Of a stretch of 64,000 nucleotides of DNA, positions 45,394-54,900 are shown piece after piece; positions within the stretch are counted from its first letter, which is position 1, and each line of letters opens with the position of its first letter. The stretch comes from Elizabethkingia miricola (lineage in GTDB: Bacteria > Bacteroidota > Bacteroidia > Flavobacteriales > Weeksellaceae). The notes under the pieces are model-generated. The model saw only the letters and a list, made by a program, of their open reading frames with translations. It had not been told where the DNA came from and did no database searches. The DNA lies in NCBI RefSeq assembly GCF_001675285.1, contig NZ_LSGQ01000030.1, forward strand, positions 1 to 64,000, written 5' to 3'. Made by a program: the position numbers and the translations under genes.

Positions 45394-45497
45394 AACGTTA
45401 TCTATCCCATAGTGGTAGAATGTAGCACCTTCTTCGGCAAGCGAAGGGTTGCTAAGGCGTCATAGGGTCTATTCCCTCGGCCTTTCCTGATAACATT
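45394..45497 (-). ncRNA. SAM-I (S-box) riboswitch
   Basis: On the minus strand the S-box core is clear: a 9-bp P1 helix (AATGTTATC with GATAACGTT), then GAGGGAATAGACCCTATGA, GCCTTAGCAACC, and GGTGCTACATTC, closing with the P1 3' strand. It lies about 60 bases upstream of metX, downstream of a consensus promoter, and should turn off the methionine operon when S-adenosylmethionine is abundant. Confidence 0.93.
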
Positions 45498-49751: not shown

Positions 49752-51506
49752 TTATAACTGCAGGTTTTGTATAAAAGCCTGCAGATCTTCTTCTTTTCCC
49801 AAACCTATTTTCTGTTTTAGTCTGTATTTAGTCATTCTAACTGTTTTAGGATCTGCTTTCAGAGCACTCGCAATCTGCAGGTTATCCATGTTCAGATAAA
49901 TATAAGCTGCATATCTAAGATCCTGATTTGTCAGTTTACTTTTAGACACTTCATTCAAACGCTTGAAGAAATTAGGATGAACTTCCTGCACAATGTTTTG
50001 TATTGCACTAAAGTTGGTATCAGAAGATTGCTCTTCCTTCAGAATACGATCCAGATTAAAATCTTTTATGTCTTTGGCCTTTTCCTTCAACTCATTGATG
50101 AAAGTATTTTTCTGGTTCAGTTGAAGAGACGTTGCCAATGCCTGCTTCTGCAGCTGCTCCTGTTGTATCGCCCACAACTCCTGCTCTGCTTTCATACGGG
50201 CTTTTTCTTCCTGCTCAAGCTGTAAAAGAAGTTCTGATTCATTTCTTTCGGCTACCAGCAGGTTTTGTTTATATCTAAGGGTATAAATCAGAAATATTAT
50301 AGTAGCTATAGAAAGGAGAATAATTCCCAGATAAAGAAATTTCCGTTTATTAAATATTTTATTCTTTTCCTCCAGTTGCTTTATCTGTTGATTCTTCTGT
50401 TGTGCCTGATAAAATACGTCCAGTGTTTTGGCCGTATTATGAGACTGTTCCTCACTGTAATGTTTAATCAGATTTTTGGCATCCCGTTCATAAACAAGGG
50501 CTTTTTCCGGCTGACCTATCTTTTCATGCAGTCGTGAAAGATTTTCAAGGATCTCCATTTTATCACTCAGAAATATTTCCTTGTCATTCTTTGACAAAGA
50601 ATAAGCTTTTAAATAATACTCTTTTGCCAGTTCATTTTTTCCCATTGCCTCATATACATAGCCAATATTATTGTAGGCAAATGTTGTAAACTGCTCAAAA
50701 TTGTCATCGTCTTTATTCAGTGATAGTACCTTATTGTACAATTCCAGGCATTTATTATAATCTACAGGTTTCACAGTATTAACCATTACACCATAATTCA
50801 GATAATAAGCAATCAACGACCTTTTCTGGGCAGCTGGTTCTTTTATCAGCAAAGCATATTGGTAAGATTTCTGATAACTTTCCTGTGCAGAAGCAAGAAA
50901 TTTCTTTTCGTTCGATAACTCATATCTCTTCCGGTAATAATATCCAAGGTTATTATAAGTAGAGTTGATTAATAAATTATTTTTAGATTTTAATGCATAT
51001 TGATTCGCTTTGGTATAGTCTTCTTCACCATACTTATTGAGCATTTTTTTGGTGGAGTAATTATATTTAAGAAAATACAATGTGGCAAGAATGAAATTCT
51101 CATTGGGATATTTGCTAAAAGTAATGATGCTTTCATTAACTGATTTTACAAATAACTCGTCCTTATCTAGCTTCTGATAATATTTAGCATAGCCCTGATC
51201 GACATAAGCTTTGTCTATAGGATCCTTCGTTTTTGAAGCTATATCTTGAGCTTTTTCCAAAGCCTCTGTTCTTTTCACCACATCTTTTAGTAAAGCATAG
51301 TAGTCTGCCAAATAAACATAACCAATAACTTTTCTGGAGTCATTATCCGATTTTAAGAACTCTGATTCTATAACTTCTTTTGCCTTGGCTTTCTCATTAC
51401 CATATAAAAGGGTATAAACAAGTTGTTGATTAACATCCTTATCACTTTGGGCAAAATATAAGCAGGACATTAATAATAAAATAACAGATAATACAACTTT
51501 ATTCAT
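49752..51506 (-). CDS. TPR-LuxR-type transcriptional regulator
   Basis: This 584-residue protein starts at the ATG at 51506 (MNKVVLSVILLLMSCLYFAQ, a signal/lipobox region); the longer frame is unlikely. A periplasmic TPR array occupies about 25-380, one transmembrane helix about 393-415 (FLYLGIILLSIATIIFLIYT), then a coiled coil (about 420-490). The C-terminal LuxR-like helix-turn-helix (LTNQDLRYAAYIYLNMDNLQ then IASALKADPKTVRMTKYRLK) completes it. This is a Bacteroidota one-component membrane regulator. It is encoded just beyond the small-peptide locus and could control it. Confidence 0.85.
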   Translation of the reverse strand: MNKVVLSVILLLMSCLYFAQSDKDVNQQLVYTLLYGNEKAKAKEVIESEFLKSDNDSRKVIGYVYLADYYALLKDVVKRTEALEKAQDIASKTKDPIDKAYVDQGYAKYYQKLDKDELFVKSVNESIITFSKYPNENFILATLYFLKYNYSTKKMLNKYGEEDYTKANQYALKSKNNLLINSTYNNLGYYYRKRYELSNEKKFLASAQESYQKSYQYALLIKEPAAQKRSLIAYYLNYGVMVNTVKPVDYNKCLELYNKVLSLNKDDDNFEQFTTFAYNNIGYVYEAMGKNELAKEYYLKAYSLSKNDKEIFLSDKMEILENLSRLHEKIGQPEKALVYERDAKNLIKHYSEEQSHNTAKTLDVFYQAQQKNQQIKQLEEKNKIFNKRKFLYLGIILLSIATIIFLIYTLRYKQNLLVAERNESELLLQLEQEEKARMKAEQELWAIQQEQLQKQALATSLQLNQKNTFINELKEKAKDIKDFNLDRILKEEQSSDTNFSAIQNIVQEVHPNFFKRLNEVSKSKLTNQDLRYAAYIYLNMDNLQIASALKADPKTVRMTKYRLKQKIGLGKEEDLQAFIQNLQL

Positions 51507-51632
51507 TTTTTGCAAACTCATAAAACCTTTATATACAAAAATACATATATATAAACATATAATAATTAGGTTTTTACAAAAAAATGTAGACATTTTGTAT
51601 ACGTGAAAAAAAAATTATGTAGGCGCATTGTA

Positions 51633-51757: not shown

Positions 51758-51807
51758 TTACATACAAGTATTAAGAGAGCAATGTATTTATAAGAATATA
51801 TAAATAA

Positions 51808-51942
51808 TTAATTCGCATTTAAAGCAACATCTTTTCCATATAAATAAGCCACATATAATATAACAATTAATAGAATTGCAAATTCAATAAGGTTTTTATT
51901 GGTGTAACAAAGTGTTCTTTTTTTTGTTTTTCTAATAATCAT
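51808..51942 (-). CDS. Small membrane peptide, 44 residues (peptide 6)
   Basis: The start is the ATG at 51942 (MIIRKTKKRTLCYTNKN); a single hydrophobic helix follows (FAILLIVILYVAYLY), with tail GKDVALNAN. The helix-then-GK tail resembles the other peptides of the locus. Its ATG lies inside the 3' end of peptide 5, an operon-like overlap. Too short for family assignment. Confidence 0.5.
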   Translation of the reverse strand: MIIRKTKKRTLCYTNKNLIEFAILLIVILYVAYLYGKDVALNAN

Positions 51943-52065
51943 TTTTCTTAATTTTATGACTATCTTTTTTCTCTTTCAGCTGCAGCTTTATCAGGTTATT
52001 TTCCTTTTTCAAAATTAGAATGCAAATACACAAAATAACTAATAAAAAAGCCAGATAAATTTCAT
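51932..52065 (-). pseudogene. Small membrane peptide interrupted by a frameshift (peptide 5)
   Basis: From the ATG at 52065 the frame (MKFIWLF...) stops after eight codons, just past a run of six T. One extra T would give a 44-residue peptide with a hydrophobic helix (LFLLVILCICILIL) and a Lys-rich tail ending KIKKNDY, whose stop overlaps the next start. It is either a decayed gene, a homopolymer sequencing error, or a site of slippage. Confidence 0.4.
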
Positions 52066-52163
52066 ATTTATGTTTTTTTAGTATGTGAAGTATTTTTGAC
52101 TTTAAAACAAATCTACTCTAGTAACTGGAACAGATTTTAATTTTATTAAAGTTATAGAAAGAT

Positions 52164-52334
52164 TTATAAACCGTAAAATCTCCCTACCTTCCATCCGATT
52201 CTAAAAAGAATGAATGCAATCAAAGTAATTGCTAAAACAGACATTGCTAAATTATCATTAAAGCTCTTGTCTATTTTATTCAAAAAGGATTGAATGCTAA
52301 TATTAGGTAACTTAGGATGCAGATTCTTTTTCAT
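52164..52334 (-). CDS. Small membrane peptide, 56 residues (peptide 4)
   Basis: The intact frame from the ATG at 52334 starts MKKNLHPKLPNISIQ. One hydrophobic helix (AMSVLAITLIAFILF) is followed by RIGWKVGRFYGL, which resembles the G-K-x-x-G-K tails of peptides 1 and 3. No double-glycine leader is visible. I do not recognise a family. Confidence 0.5.
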   Translation of the reverse strand: MKKNLHPKLPNISIQSFLNKIDKSFNDNLAMSVLAITLIAFILFRIGWKVGRFYGL

Positions 52335-52373
52335 ATTTTTCTATAATATACGAAATTAAGTATAATTGAAAGC

Positions 52374-52520
52374 CTAGTTAACCAAATAATAGATAGCTTT
52401 ACCAATAACTTTACCACTGAAATACACAAAAATTATTAACGTAACCGAAGCAACTATAATTTCCGACTTGATATTCATTTTCATATTTTTAATTTTATTT
52501 TTTGTCATTTCTCTTTCCAT
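52374..52520 (-). CDS. Small membrane peptide, about 48 residues (peptide 3)
   Basis: The start at 52520 follows the peptide 2 stop by four bases; other ATGs in frame are possible. One hydrophobic helix (IIVASVTLIIFVYF) is followed by SGKVIGKAIYYLVN. This C-terminus closely resembles peptide 1 (GSKEVGKAAYLLTH), so the two are probable paralogues. Where peptide 1 has Gly-Gly this one has Ser-Glu. Confidence 0.5.
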   Translation of the reverse strand: MEREMTKNKIKNMKMNIKSEIIVASVTLIIFVYFSGKVIGKAIYYLVN

Positions 52521-52524
52521 TTCT

Positions 52525-52623
52525 TTATATCCCATACAAAGACTTAGCATAAAGCAAAAGATCTCCGCCATTAGTATTTTCCTGCTCTTCGTAAGATAAT
52601 TCTTTTAATTTTATAATCTTCAA
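52525..52623 (-). CDS. Double-glycine leader peptide, 32 residues (peptide 2)
   Basis: The TTG start at 52623 immediately follows the peptide 1 stop. The sequence KLKELSYEEQENTNGG is a near-ideal double-glycine leader (L-x-x-L-S-x-E-E then GG), followed by a 12-residue core DLLLYAKSLYGI. Such leaders are cut by C39 peptidase-ABC exporters. The 12-residue core is very short for a bacteriocin; a signalling peptide is an alternative. No exporter gene is seen in the window. Confidence 0.55.
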   Translation of the reverse strand: MKIIKLKELSYEEQENTNGGDLLLYAKSLYGI

Positions 52624-52787
52624 TTAATGAGTTAATAAATAAGCAGCTTTACCGACTTCTTTACTTCCATAATAAGTTGCGCTTGTTATCGCAATTATAC
52701 TTAAAACTACAAGTAATATTCCCCCTTTATGTTTTTTTTCATTTCCTGAGTATTAAACCCAACTAGATTTAAATTTTGTAAATTCAT
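52624..52787 (-). pseudogene. Double-glycine peptide interrupted at an A8 tract (peptide 1)
   Basis: From the ATG at 52787 the frame (MNLQNLNLVGFNTQEM) passes a run of eight A and stops after 26 residues. One extra A would join it to HKGG, then the hydrophobic helix ILLVVLSIIAITSATYY and tail GSKEVGKAAYLLTH, giving 54 residues with a double-glycine leader. Possible causes are gene decay, homopolymer miscall or transcriptional slippage. Both the leader and the mature part look conserved in style, so decay is recent if real. Confidence 0.5.
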
Positions 52788-52866
52788 CTTTTCAATTTTT
52801 AAAATTTGTATTAATCTTTGTCATATTATAATCCCTGACATTGGTTTTACAGATCTGTTATAAAAA

Positions 52867-52898
52867 CAAATATGACCCTGATTAATATTATGAGCAAA
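52867..52898 (-). promoter_or_regulatory. Candidate promoter of the small-peptide operon
   Basis: On the minus strand TTTG, 20 bases, then CATATTTG matches the Bacteroidota promoter with one mismatch. Transcription would start about 75 bases upstream of peptide 1. Confidence 0.5.
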
Positions 52899-53127
52899 TG
52901 AAGCTTGTCCTTATTCTTTAAATTTTGACAGATTACATTATAAAAGCACTAAAATGAAAGTAAATGAAATAAGAATCGTAATAAAAAGGATACAGTATTG
53001 TCTATGAATATTTAAGACTTAATATAAAATTATAGCATTATCTCTTTCCTGAAAGTTTAAAAACCTGAGGAGATAAAAAAATTAAAAAACAATCATTTTA
53101 AATTGAAGAAACGAAATGACGATTATC
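52899..53127. other. AT-rich gap between MutS-like gene and peptide operon
   Basis: Apart from the promoter just inside it, I see no coding frame, convincing terminator or repeat here. The end of the MutS-like transcript is not marked by a strong hairpin. Confidence 0.4.
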
Positions 53128-54900
53128 TCAATCTATAATGTTATAGGCCTTCATTAACCTTAGCGCATTCATGGTTTGGGTGACACCGGATTTTAATTTG
53201 TAGTCGGATATAAGCTCACCATTTTTTTCATCCAATTCAAAACAAAGATTGGAAACATTTTCAGGGTAAGTTATATCCATATCTGTGAGTGGCAAATCAT
53301 GGGTAGCAATAATACAAGTAAAGTCTGTATTAATATCCATTATTTTCTTCAGGAACAAACGAGAACCCTCCAACTTATCTGTAGAATTTGTTCCCTTCAG
53401 AATTTCATCGAGAATAATGTAAAGTGGAATCTTTTCTTCCAATGTCTCCACTAAACTTTTTAATCTTTTTATTTCTGCATTAAAATAAGAACTTCCATCC
53501 GATAAGGAATCGCTTGTTCTCATACTTGTAAATATATGCATCGGTCTAAAAGAAAACTCTTCGGCTCCGACCGGGCAACCATTCATTGCCAGCACAAGAT
53601 TTACACCTATAGTTCGGAGAAAAGTACTTTTACCTGTCATGTTAGCCCCTGTAACGATACAGATATTCTTAGTATTTCCAATAATAAAATCATTACCGAT
53701 TGCTTTTCCGGAGTCCAATAATGGGTGAACTATATCTTTACATTGTAATGAATCTATATCTTCCCTACAAACCGGATAATTGTATTGAGGATTTTTATAA
53801 GCAAAAATGCCAAAAGATATTAATGCTTCATACTCAGCAAATGCCTCAAACCAGTTATCAATATGCTCGTTAAGCATATTCATTAATTTCGCCAGCTCTA
53901 CTGTATATCTAAGATTCCATAGAAACAAAAGATTGGCAATTGATCCAAACAATGGTGTATGTCCGTTATCCAGATTTCTTTTTATACCGGATAATTTGTT
54001 AATACATGAAGAAGCCAACGGATGAGTAAGCTTTGCCTGAAGGTTTTTATTTAATGCTGTATCGAAAGCTTCTTTCTCTATTAACTGAAAAATTTCTGAA
54101 AACCTGCTATATTGTCCTGATCTTAGATTGACAACACTATAAGCTTTTTTAAGTTGTTTACTGTATTTACTATTAACAACAAGCAAGCTAATAATAGAAA
54201 AGGCTAAAAATACCCCCAGAAAAACAGGTGAAAAATCCTTCAAAATAGCCAATATCAGTAATAAAATATTAATTACCGGAATCACTATCAGTATTGTACT
54301 AACAAGCTTCCATGGAAAATCTACAGATAGTTTGTTTGTCAACAGACTTTTATCTTGTAATTCAAGCGACTTTGCATTTGCCAGAAAGCGTATGTTCCAT
54401 TCCGGCTTCTGAGATAACTCTTTAATAGCATCCTGCCTTTCTTCAATTTCTTTGCATTGTGTAAGTGGATTAGACAGGTAATCTCTCAGTGTATCTGCTC
54501 CCAGACAGGTTGATGTCTTATCTATTTTAGTAAACAGGGAACGTTCACCGAAAATATCCAAATCTTTATTATAGGAGTGATAATTGTTTATATCAGATCC
54601 TTCAATTTGGGCATTCTTTGAAAACTCTTCAGTAATCTGATTACAAACTTCAATAACTCTTTTACTATAATTTATTTTTTGCTGATAGTGAGATGATATA
54701 AATAGTAGTACTAAAAAAAGTATAAATGACAGGCCAGTTAAAAACAGATACAAAGCTTCCTTATCCTGAAAATACTTAATTACCGAAAAAACAGAGGCAA
54801 GAAATGTCAGAACCCTAAATACACTAATTAAATTTTTGATCTTTTCAGAGGATTTTATATTAGCCTGCTCTTGCTCGATTGAGTACTCTATTTCTTTCAT
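53128..54900 (-). CDS. Membrane-anchored MutS-like ATPase
   Basis: This 590-residue protein has two pairs of transmembrane helices in its N-terminal half (about 28-72 and about 198-240), a MutS core/lever-like helical region (about 250-400), and a MutS domain V ATPase with Walker A GANMTGKST (about 420) and Walker B LYIILDEILKGTNS (about 495), then IIATHDLPL. It lacks the mismatch-recognition domain, so classical repair is unlikely. This membrane MutS class is known in Bacteroidota but its function is unknown. It lies 77 bp downstream of the DUF58 gene and may belong to that operon. Confidence 0.82.
   Translation of the reverse strand: MKEIEYSIEQEQANIKSSEKIKNLISVFRVLTFLASVFSVIKYFQDKEALYLFLTGLSFILFLVLLFISSHYQQKINYSKRVIEVCNQITEEFSKNAQIEGSDINNYHSYNKDLDIFGERSLFTKIDKTSTCLGADTLRDYLSNPLTQCKEIEERQDAIKELSQKPEWNIRFLANAKSLELQDKSLLTNKLSVDFPWKLVSTILIVIPVINILLLILAILKDFSPVFLGVFLAFSIISLLVVNSKYSKQLKKAYSVVNLRSGQYSRFSEIFQLIEKEAFDTALNKNLQAKLTHPLASSCINKLSGIKRNLDNGHTPLFGSIANLLFLWNLRYTVELAKLMNMLNEHIDNWFEAFAEYEALISFGIFAYKNPQYNYPVCREDIDSLQCKDIVHPLLDSGKAIGNDFIIGNTKNICIVTGANMTGKSTFLRTIGVNLVLAMNGCPVGAEEFSFRPMHIFTSMRTSDSLSDGSSYFNAEIKRLKSLVETLEEKIPLYIILDEILKGTNSTDKLEGSRLFLKKIMDINTDFTCIIATHDLPLTDMDITYPENVSNLCFELDEKNGELISDYKLKSGVTQTMNALRLMKAYNIID

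Follow-up and report, generated by a model that had tools for sequence, protein, structure and literature searches.

The window, a 64,000-nt stretch of Elizabethkingia (Weeksellaceae) DNA, contains between a MutS-like gene and the gene for a TPR protein a gap of about one kilobase (positions 51800-52900) that had been predicted, despite a seemingly non-coding appearance, to carry a run of about six short minus-strand frames for tiny membrane peptides behind a promoter. The minus strand of 51800-52900 has a surplus of open frames relative to dinucleotide shuffles, which confirms that it is coding DNA. It holds three ATG frames of at least 40 aa relative to a shuffle mean of 0.33 (1 of 1,000 shuffles reached three) and seven ATG/GTG/TTG frames of at least 30 aa relative to a mean of 1.83 (0 of 1,000 reached seven), and no such excess was detected on the plus strand of the same interval. 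The features of the site, read along the minus strand, are as follows.

53128..54900, minus: MutS-like ATPase, a flank outside the insert (PF00488 and PF05192); conserved in the congeners G001-G004
52849..52858, minus: 10-nt palindrome ACAGATCTGT with covarying arms (GCTGATCAGC in most relatives, ACAAATTTGT in L012)
52819..52844, minus: leader block CCAATGTCAGGGATTATAATATGACA with TGTCA/TGACA arms and a possible hairpin with a 12-nt loop, 31 nt before the ATG of P1
52707..52787, minus (ATG at 52787): P1 leader frame MNLQNLNLVGFNTQEMKK..., ending early and homologous to GG-peptide leaders (best leader match score of 51, 0 of 200 shuffles)
52624..52725, minus (GG-core at 52627-52725): P1 core GGILLVVLSIIAITSATYYGSKEVGKAAYLLTH and its stop, in a frame other than that of the P1 leader and without an ATG/GTG/TTG start
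52525..52623, minus: P2 leader frame with a TTG start and the leader KLKELSYEEQENTNGG (52564-52611), ending 12 residues past GG
52485..52550, minus: P2 core piece in a different frame, without its own stop and continuing into the frame of P3
52374..52484, minus: P3, intact 36-aa leaderless single-TM peptide MKMNIKSEIIVASVTLIIFVYFSGKVIGKAIYYLVN, its frame open from 52571; putative immunity peptide
52164..52334, minus: P4, open 56-aa leaderless TM peptide with C-terminus GWKVGRFYGL
51932..52114, minus: P5, open frame with a TM segment and no ATG/GTG/TTG start before that segment
51808..51942, minus: P6, open 44-aa leaderless TM peptide
49752..51593, minus: TPR protein with a weak LuxR-type HTH, a flank outside the insert (PF13424 above cut-off, GerE below cut-off)

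Peptide genes and their genomic site

The predicted run of six peptides stood only in part, as P3 is intact (maximum mean hydropathy of 2.02 over 17 residues) and P4 and P6 are open, but P1 and P2 are broken in frame and P5 lacks a start codon. Peptide 1 does not form an ORF: a break just before GG separates its leader from a startless core in another frame. The leader described for peptide 2 is present, but the frame stops soon after GG, where the break falls, and the rest of the core lies in another frame that has lost its own stop. Because the P1 break lies beside homopolymer runs, an assembly error at P1 is possible; the bigger lesion in P2 and the missing start of P5 make an error across the whole locus unlikely. 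The predicted tail common to the P1 core frame (GSKEVGKAAYLL) and P3 (GKVIGKAIYYL) was upheld by a local score of 47 that 0 of 500 shuffles reached. Peptide 4 fits the layout that it was said to share with peptide 6, but peptide 6 fits it just loosely.

We compared the site in five congeners (G001-G005). The MutS-like and TPR genes directly adjoin each other in G003 and G004 with no insert, which marks some 1.3 kb of the window (roughly 51780-53124) as an insert. The site in G002 is occupied by an exporter operon of about 6 kb, to which window positions 52733-53130 are homologous at 89% identity, a match that includes the control region and the first leader. After the shared part, the G002 operon encodes a GG-leader peptide, a protein with an HExxH-type stretch (peptidase match below cut-off only), a 63-aa membrane protein, HlyD, a C39-peptidase ABC exporter (TIGR01193 above cut-off), and a MutS_V protein. 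In G001, a solitary leader-like peptide precedes a MutS-like gene with 52% identity to the one in the window, and a DNA search of G005 with the window region yielded no match. For one flanking protein, the closest matches among named loci come from Elizabethkingia sp. YR214 (98% identity) and E. occulta (97%). A candidate DNA relative at C32 of the window's own genome was discarded because the match spans 76 bp and no peptide locus surrounds it.

MutS-type ATPases recur near peptide loci, with a MutS_V gene after the exporter in G002 (L012:7442-8665) and the MutS-like gene downstream of the lone leader peptide in G001 (L042:6122-7897). We do not claim the TPR neighbor as a regulator of the peptides; TPR proteins of 570-600 aa are encoded near eight sister loci without a BLAST match to the TPR protein of the window, and the two of these that were scanned contain an AraC-type HTH.

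Intact counterpart and exporter genes

An intact cluster of P1, P2, P3, HlyD, and C39-ABC genes, in that order, is found at locus L039 of G244, a genome of another genus (g21) in the same family and the only genome in which the full intact P1-P2-P3 set was found. In L039, P1 is MNLKKLNVQELNNKELQETEGG-ILPLIMGIATVTAAVYYGGKEIGKAAYYLTH, P2 is MKNIKELTLQEQKDINGG-GLLVFALMLGIYVGYKETQYEHSKK, and P3 is MVFSKKVSIIVACILSFIFILICGKVIGKALFYLLN. L039 P1 scored above the NCBIfam cut-offs for class IIb bacteriocins (TIGR03949, 26.2 versus 21.5 bits) and for bacteriocin leaders (TIGR01847, 16.2 versus 15.7), and L039 P2 scored below the TIGR03949 cut-off. Together with the position of P1 shortly before HlyD and C39-ABC, these matches support the bacteriocin-type reading in the original prediction.

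The first three peptides of the window align piece by piece with this cluster. L039 P1 as a query matched 14 of 320 family genomes at E 0.001, mostly via the leader, and its best match outside G244 was the P1 core frame of the window (E 3.8e-9); identities with L039 P1 amount to 7 of 18 residues in the leader and 20 of 33 in the core. For P2, 12 of 24 residues are identical in the leader piece and 8 of 17 in the core piece (0.005 by shuffles for the latter), and P2 also differs from its L039 counterpart by a longer gap. P3 is identical to L039 P3 at 18 of 36 residues, with a score of 87 with L039 and L040 (0 of 200 shuffles). Summed over the pieces, differences from L039 number 52, 28, and 65 at codon positions 1, 2, and 3, respectively, and synonymous codon changes occur at 27 identical residues. 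Since differences are fewest at position 2 and most frequent at position 3 and are accompanied by synonymous changes, the pieces were once coding sequences evolving under constraint.

Of 246 family genomes searched with the 65-aa frame of P3, nine had a match at E 0.01, counting the genome of the window itself. Six of the eight other genomes had stops in the match and poor scores, and the matches in G244, where a stop sits before the P3 start, and in G091 are sound. In L040, where homologues of P1 and P2 are missing, a P3 homologue is present, a second case of P3 alone. Conservation of the frames in relatives, on which the original prediction had been staked, therefore extends to frames 1-3, kept in one relative, but frames 4-6 lack convincing relatives.

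The search for a C39-peptidase exporter that had been suggested as a check found two such genes in the window's genome, but both are at other loci: one on C1, beside several Cys-rich GG-peptides of another leader type, and one on C27, beside other large genes. Between the flanking genes of the window, we detected neither a C39-peptidase ABC exporter nor an accessory protein. The cognate HlyD was found at E 1e-30 in 32 of 320 family genomes, with no match at this threshold in the window's genome, for which 6 of 20 candidates were scored.

The C1 gene is part of a second C39-ABC locus (G000:C1, L045 3879-9107) with approximately five short Cys-rich peptides having GG- or GS-leaders of the other type. 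Plasmid carriage of the HlyD subfamily was considered and rejected, as all 81 records were below 60% identity and were mostly from Rhizobium and Bradyrhizobium. We also observed in L087 (6929-7213) and its near copy L088 a gene for a YbaB/EbfC-like small protein, just under the Pfam cut-off, overlapping the HlyD start; a gene resembling it precedes HlyD in L109.

A working class IIb GG-leader locus would combine in-frame leader-core precursors with a C39-ABC exporter and accessory protein at the locus. Because P1 and P2 are broken and both exporter genes are missing from the site, the window locus is not a working member of this class, and these lesions, the startless P5, and the absence of a cognate HlyD match at E 1e-30 leave the live, cryptic six-peptide locus originally proposed without support. 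Homology of its pieces to the intact locus instead identifies a remnant. We conclude with high confidence that a decayed class IIb-like (GG-leader) bacteriocin locus lies between the MutS-like and TPR protein genes in Elizabethkingia.

Leftover membrane peptides and competing readings

The P3 homologue in L039 is the last gene before HlyD, and by its position in L039 and L040, P3 is a small membrane protein encoded beside bacteriocin genes. In the stretch before HlyD in sister loci, 10 of the 11 larger membrane proteins scanned matched the Rce1-like/CAAX family (PF02517) above cut-off, a count in which the L107 protein lies further upstream and outside which fall the similar-looking proteins of L100 and L105; the eleventh protein, in L108, had no family match. 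Short leaderless TM peptides occupy this stretch instead of a CAAX-type protein in L039, L040, and L097, and L094, L101, and L107 contain both the larger proteins and the short peptides. One study places some immunity proteins for two-peptide bacteriocins in the Abi/CAAX family and calls the way they work a mystery (PMC6957408). From its position before HlyD, P3 is most likely an immunity peptide.

P4 had no credible relative in 320 family genomes. Its five matches at E 0.01, its own included, otherwise fell inside or across large frames or contained stops, and we rejected them as chance, as we did the 27 matches of P6 (of 320 genomes at E 0.01, its own included), which were otherwise weak and mostly ran across stops at the end of a large protein. 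Compared with 35 leaderless peptides of exporter loci, P4 and P6 showed weak similarity to one L129 peptide (shuffle P of 0.04 and 0.007, respectively), and the best match of P5, compared with exporter-locus peptides only, had a P of 0.06-0.09. L129 (G336:C1:157700-163300), the source of these best matches to P4 and P6, is a single exporter locus encoding four leaderless TM mini-peptides, of which three have a GxxxG tail. A different arrangement was observed in L138 (G448:C1:2256450-2262100), where a tandem GG-leader peptide array lies upstream of HlyD; 18 of its peptides passed our filter, many near-identical, with the core TSPLCIGVIIGLTITIYAD.

Judging by the protein families involved, the C39-ABC and HlyD proteins of the intact relative presumably cleave and export the two GG-leader peptides encoded beside them, which would act on the membranes of neighboring cells, and the position of the leaderless 36-aa single-TM peptide beside them suggests that it protects the producer. 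In the window, where both GG-peptide genes are broken and the exporter is missing from the site, P3 and, less surely, P4 and P6 have stayed open. If expressed, these three peptides would most likely be orphan inner-membrane immunity peptides against a bacteriocin of the same kind made by rivals. We assign a probability of about 0.7 to this overall reading of a decayed bacteriocin locus with surviving putative orphan immunity peptides; for the immunity function itself to have survived in the leftover peptides, we consider the odds even.

One alternative is that all six frames are relics drifting after exporter loss, with P3, P4, and P6 open merely because they are short. The absent exporter, the broken P1, P2, and P5, and the lack of relatives of P4-P6 are consistent with such debris. 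However, the breaks hit P1, P2, and P5 and spare P3, P4, and P6, which with so few genes may be luck, and P3 retained its tail and open frame although the preceding precursors are broken and has a homologue in L040 that also occurs without P1 and P2. We find this alternative rather unlikely. That the peptides are instead live, with homopolymer frame slippage or an assembly error concealing a P1 (and P2) that is really made and exported, would suit the otherwise good preservation of each half of P1 and P2, but P2 also lacks its own stop and has the longer gap relative to L039, and no cognate exporter was found, making live peptides highly improbable. The original prediction had also allowed for a peptide-signaling locus. 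GG-leaders serve pheromones too, and a TPR regulator next door could be counted in favor of signaling, but the TIGR03949 match, the hydrophobic GxxxG cores, and the CAAX-type neighbors fit bacteriocins, and the TPR gene is present without the peptides in G003 and G004; we view a signaling locus as very unlikely.

Immunity could also work by mimicry, with a leaderless peptide copying the C-terminal GxxxG helix of its own bacteriocin and capping it in the membrane. The P3 tail and P1 core tail of L039 (GKVIGKALFYL and GKEIGKAAYYL) resemble each other, as do those in the window, and 13 of 18 residues are identical in L097, with a weaker likeness in L107. A GxxxG motif occurred in the last 24 residues of 9 of 35 leaderless peptides versus 1 of 143 opposite-strand hydrophobic ORFs (shuffle mean of 0.87, 0 of 200 as high), or 8 of 34 once L130, a GG-peptide missed by the filter, is removed. 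Our mimicry set contained 28 loci, 24 with recognized GG-peptides and 12 with leaderless TM peptides (23 in total); L088, as a near copy of L087, was left out, and the leader filter was relaxed once before the count, known leaders having been missed. Against mimicry, the core of the own locus was the best among 24 loci for only 3 of 23 leaderless peptides (L039, L097, and L107), and when 14 independent loci belonging to other families in the order were examined, the own core ranked first among nine loci for 2 of 12 peptides, which is the chance level. Furthermore, two of the GxxxG peptides are homologous to each other. We thus rejected locus-specific mimicry as a general rule, since it was seen in two or three loci only and was unconfirmed in the independent set, and we judge it an improbable explanation.

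Returning to the decayed locus with putative orphan immunity peptides, its intact relative resembles the class IIb lactobin A/cerein 7B family (TIGR03949) in having a GG-leader, a short hydrophobic core, and a C39-peptidase exporter. It is unlike this family in its Gram-negative host and in the tiny single-TM peptide in the immunity slot, and the window locus departs from it further in its broken precursors and missing exporter. The Moraxella catarrhalis mcbABCI locus likewise pairs a Gram-negative GG-leader bacteriocin and exporter genes with an adjacent very short immunity ORF, but the 74-aa McbI comes after just one bacteriocin, and the likeness is one of description, not sequence (PMC2761928). 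The Caulobacter CdzC/CdzD/CdzI system is a Gram-negative two-peptide glycine-zipper bacteriocin with type I secretion and a small inner-membrane immunity protein, but its N-termini are RTX-like, not GG-leaders, and CdzI has three TM domains (PMC5380434). Immunity genes outnumber toxins and remain after toxin displacement in the pneumococcal blp locus (PMC4860687) and in Vibrio T6SS immunity arrays (PMC5361080), which are live systems with unrelated proteins. An Elizabethkingia outbreak paper devotes a single sentence to bacteriocin synthesis (PMC5458099), and a search of a graspetide paper for the word "promoter" found none (PMC8939145). We found no description of the P1-P3 peptide family or the leader element in a search of open-licence literature.

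The locus illustrates an easily overlooked end state of Bacteroidota bacteriocin loci in which precursors and exporter decay and tiny membrane peptides remain open. If still protective, these would be very small immunity proteins (36-56 aa) that explain resistance invisible to gene callers, and a 36-aa single-helix case would make immunity to two-peptide bacteriocins directly testable.

The leader element

The predicted minus-strand promoter was only partly borne out. Matches to a sigma-70 promoter were at chance (12 versus 10.7 in shuffles, sd of 2.9) and we rejected it, but a conserved non-coding element does lie upstream of the peptides. Over its full length (52819-52858, minus strand), this element reads ACAGATCTGT-AAAA-CCAATGTCAGGGATTATAATATGACA. 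Of 22 relative loci tested, 10 have it ahead of their first GG-peptide, and it also occurs in L106 and L109, which were outside that test; a stricter pattern detected it in 3 of 59 relatives, each belonging to the same genus as the window. We observed 19 copies in seven genomes, relative to none for a reversed-pattern control, although these genomes were chosen for carrying the element and 8 of the 19 are the bacteriocin-locus copies behind that choice. Downstream of the 19 copies are 13 GG-leader peptides, one GS-leader peptide, and five other small frames, and the 11 remaining copies precede five, one, and five of these, respectively. The distance to the ATG is 25-36 nt for 18 of the 19 copies. 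Three peptides following the element resemble TIGR04139 modification targets, below cut-off, and in G001 the element also precedes a lipoprotein-like gene outside the peptide loci.

The TGTCA/TGACA arms change to TGCCA/TGGCA in 4 of 19 copies, a single covarying pair in rows retrieved by sequence pattern. Arm pairing was complete (95 of 95 cells, 1 of 500 shuffles as high, and slid versions lower) in an alignment without the window and L012, whose loops are 3 nt longer. Pairing between CCC and GGG in the element was rejected because CCC varies and GGG does not. Because the stem is kept with a longer loop in the window and G002, the sequences favor an element that acts as RNA rather than as a DNA operator, but one covarying pair is not decisive.

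We tentatively propose, at somewhat less than even odds, that this palindrome and short hairpin with a GGGAUU-type loop form an undescribed 5'-leader control element that marks a shared exported-peptide regulon in Weeksellaceae. This regulon, proposed with the same reserve, would take in TIGR04139-like modification targets as well as class IIb-like bacteriocins and further small peptides that are secreted or have a GG-leader, with the element about 25-36 nt before their starts. If so, a single signal would turn on several peptide systems that are unrelated to each other, and the element would offer a sequence-based means of detecting exported peptides in Weeksellaceae; in the window, it still precedes the putative orphan immunity peptides. 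Rfam had no match to the element, also at a relaxed threshold on four element-bearing loci. The sole above-threshold Rfam match in the window is a SAM riboswitch (RF00162, 75.4 bits) at 45395-45496 on the minus strand.
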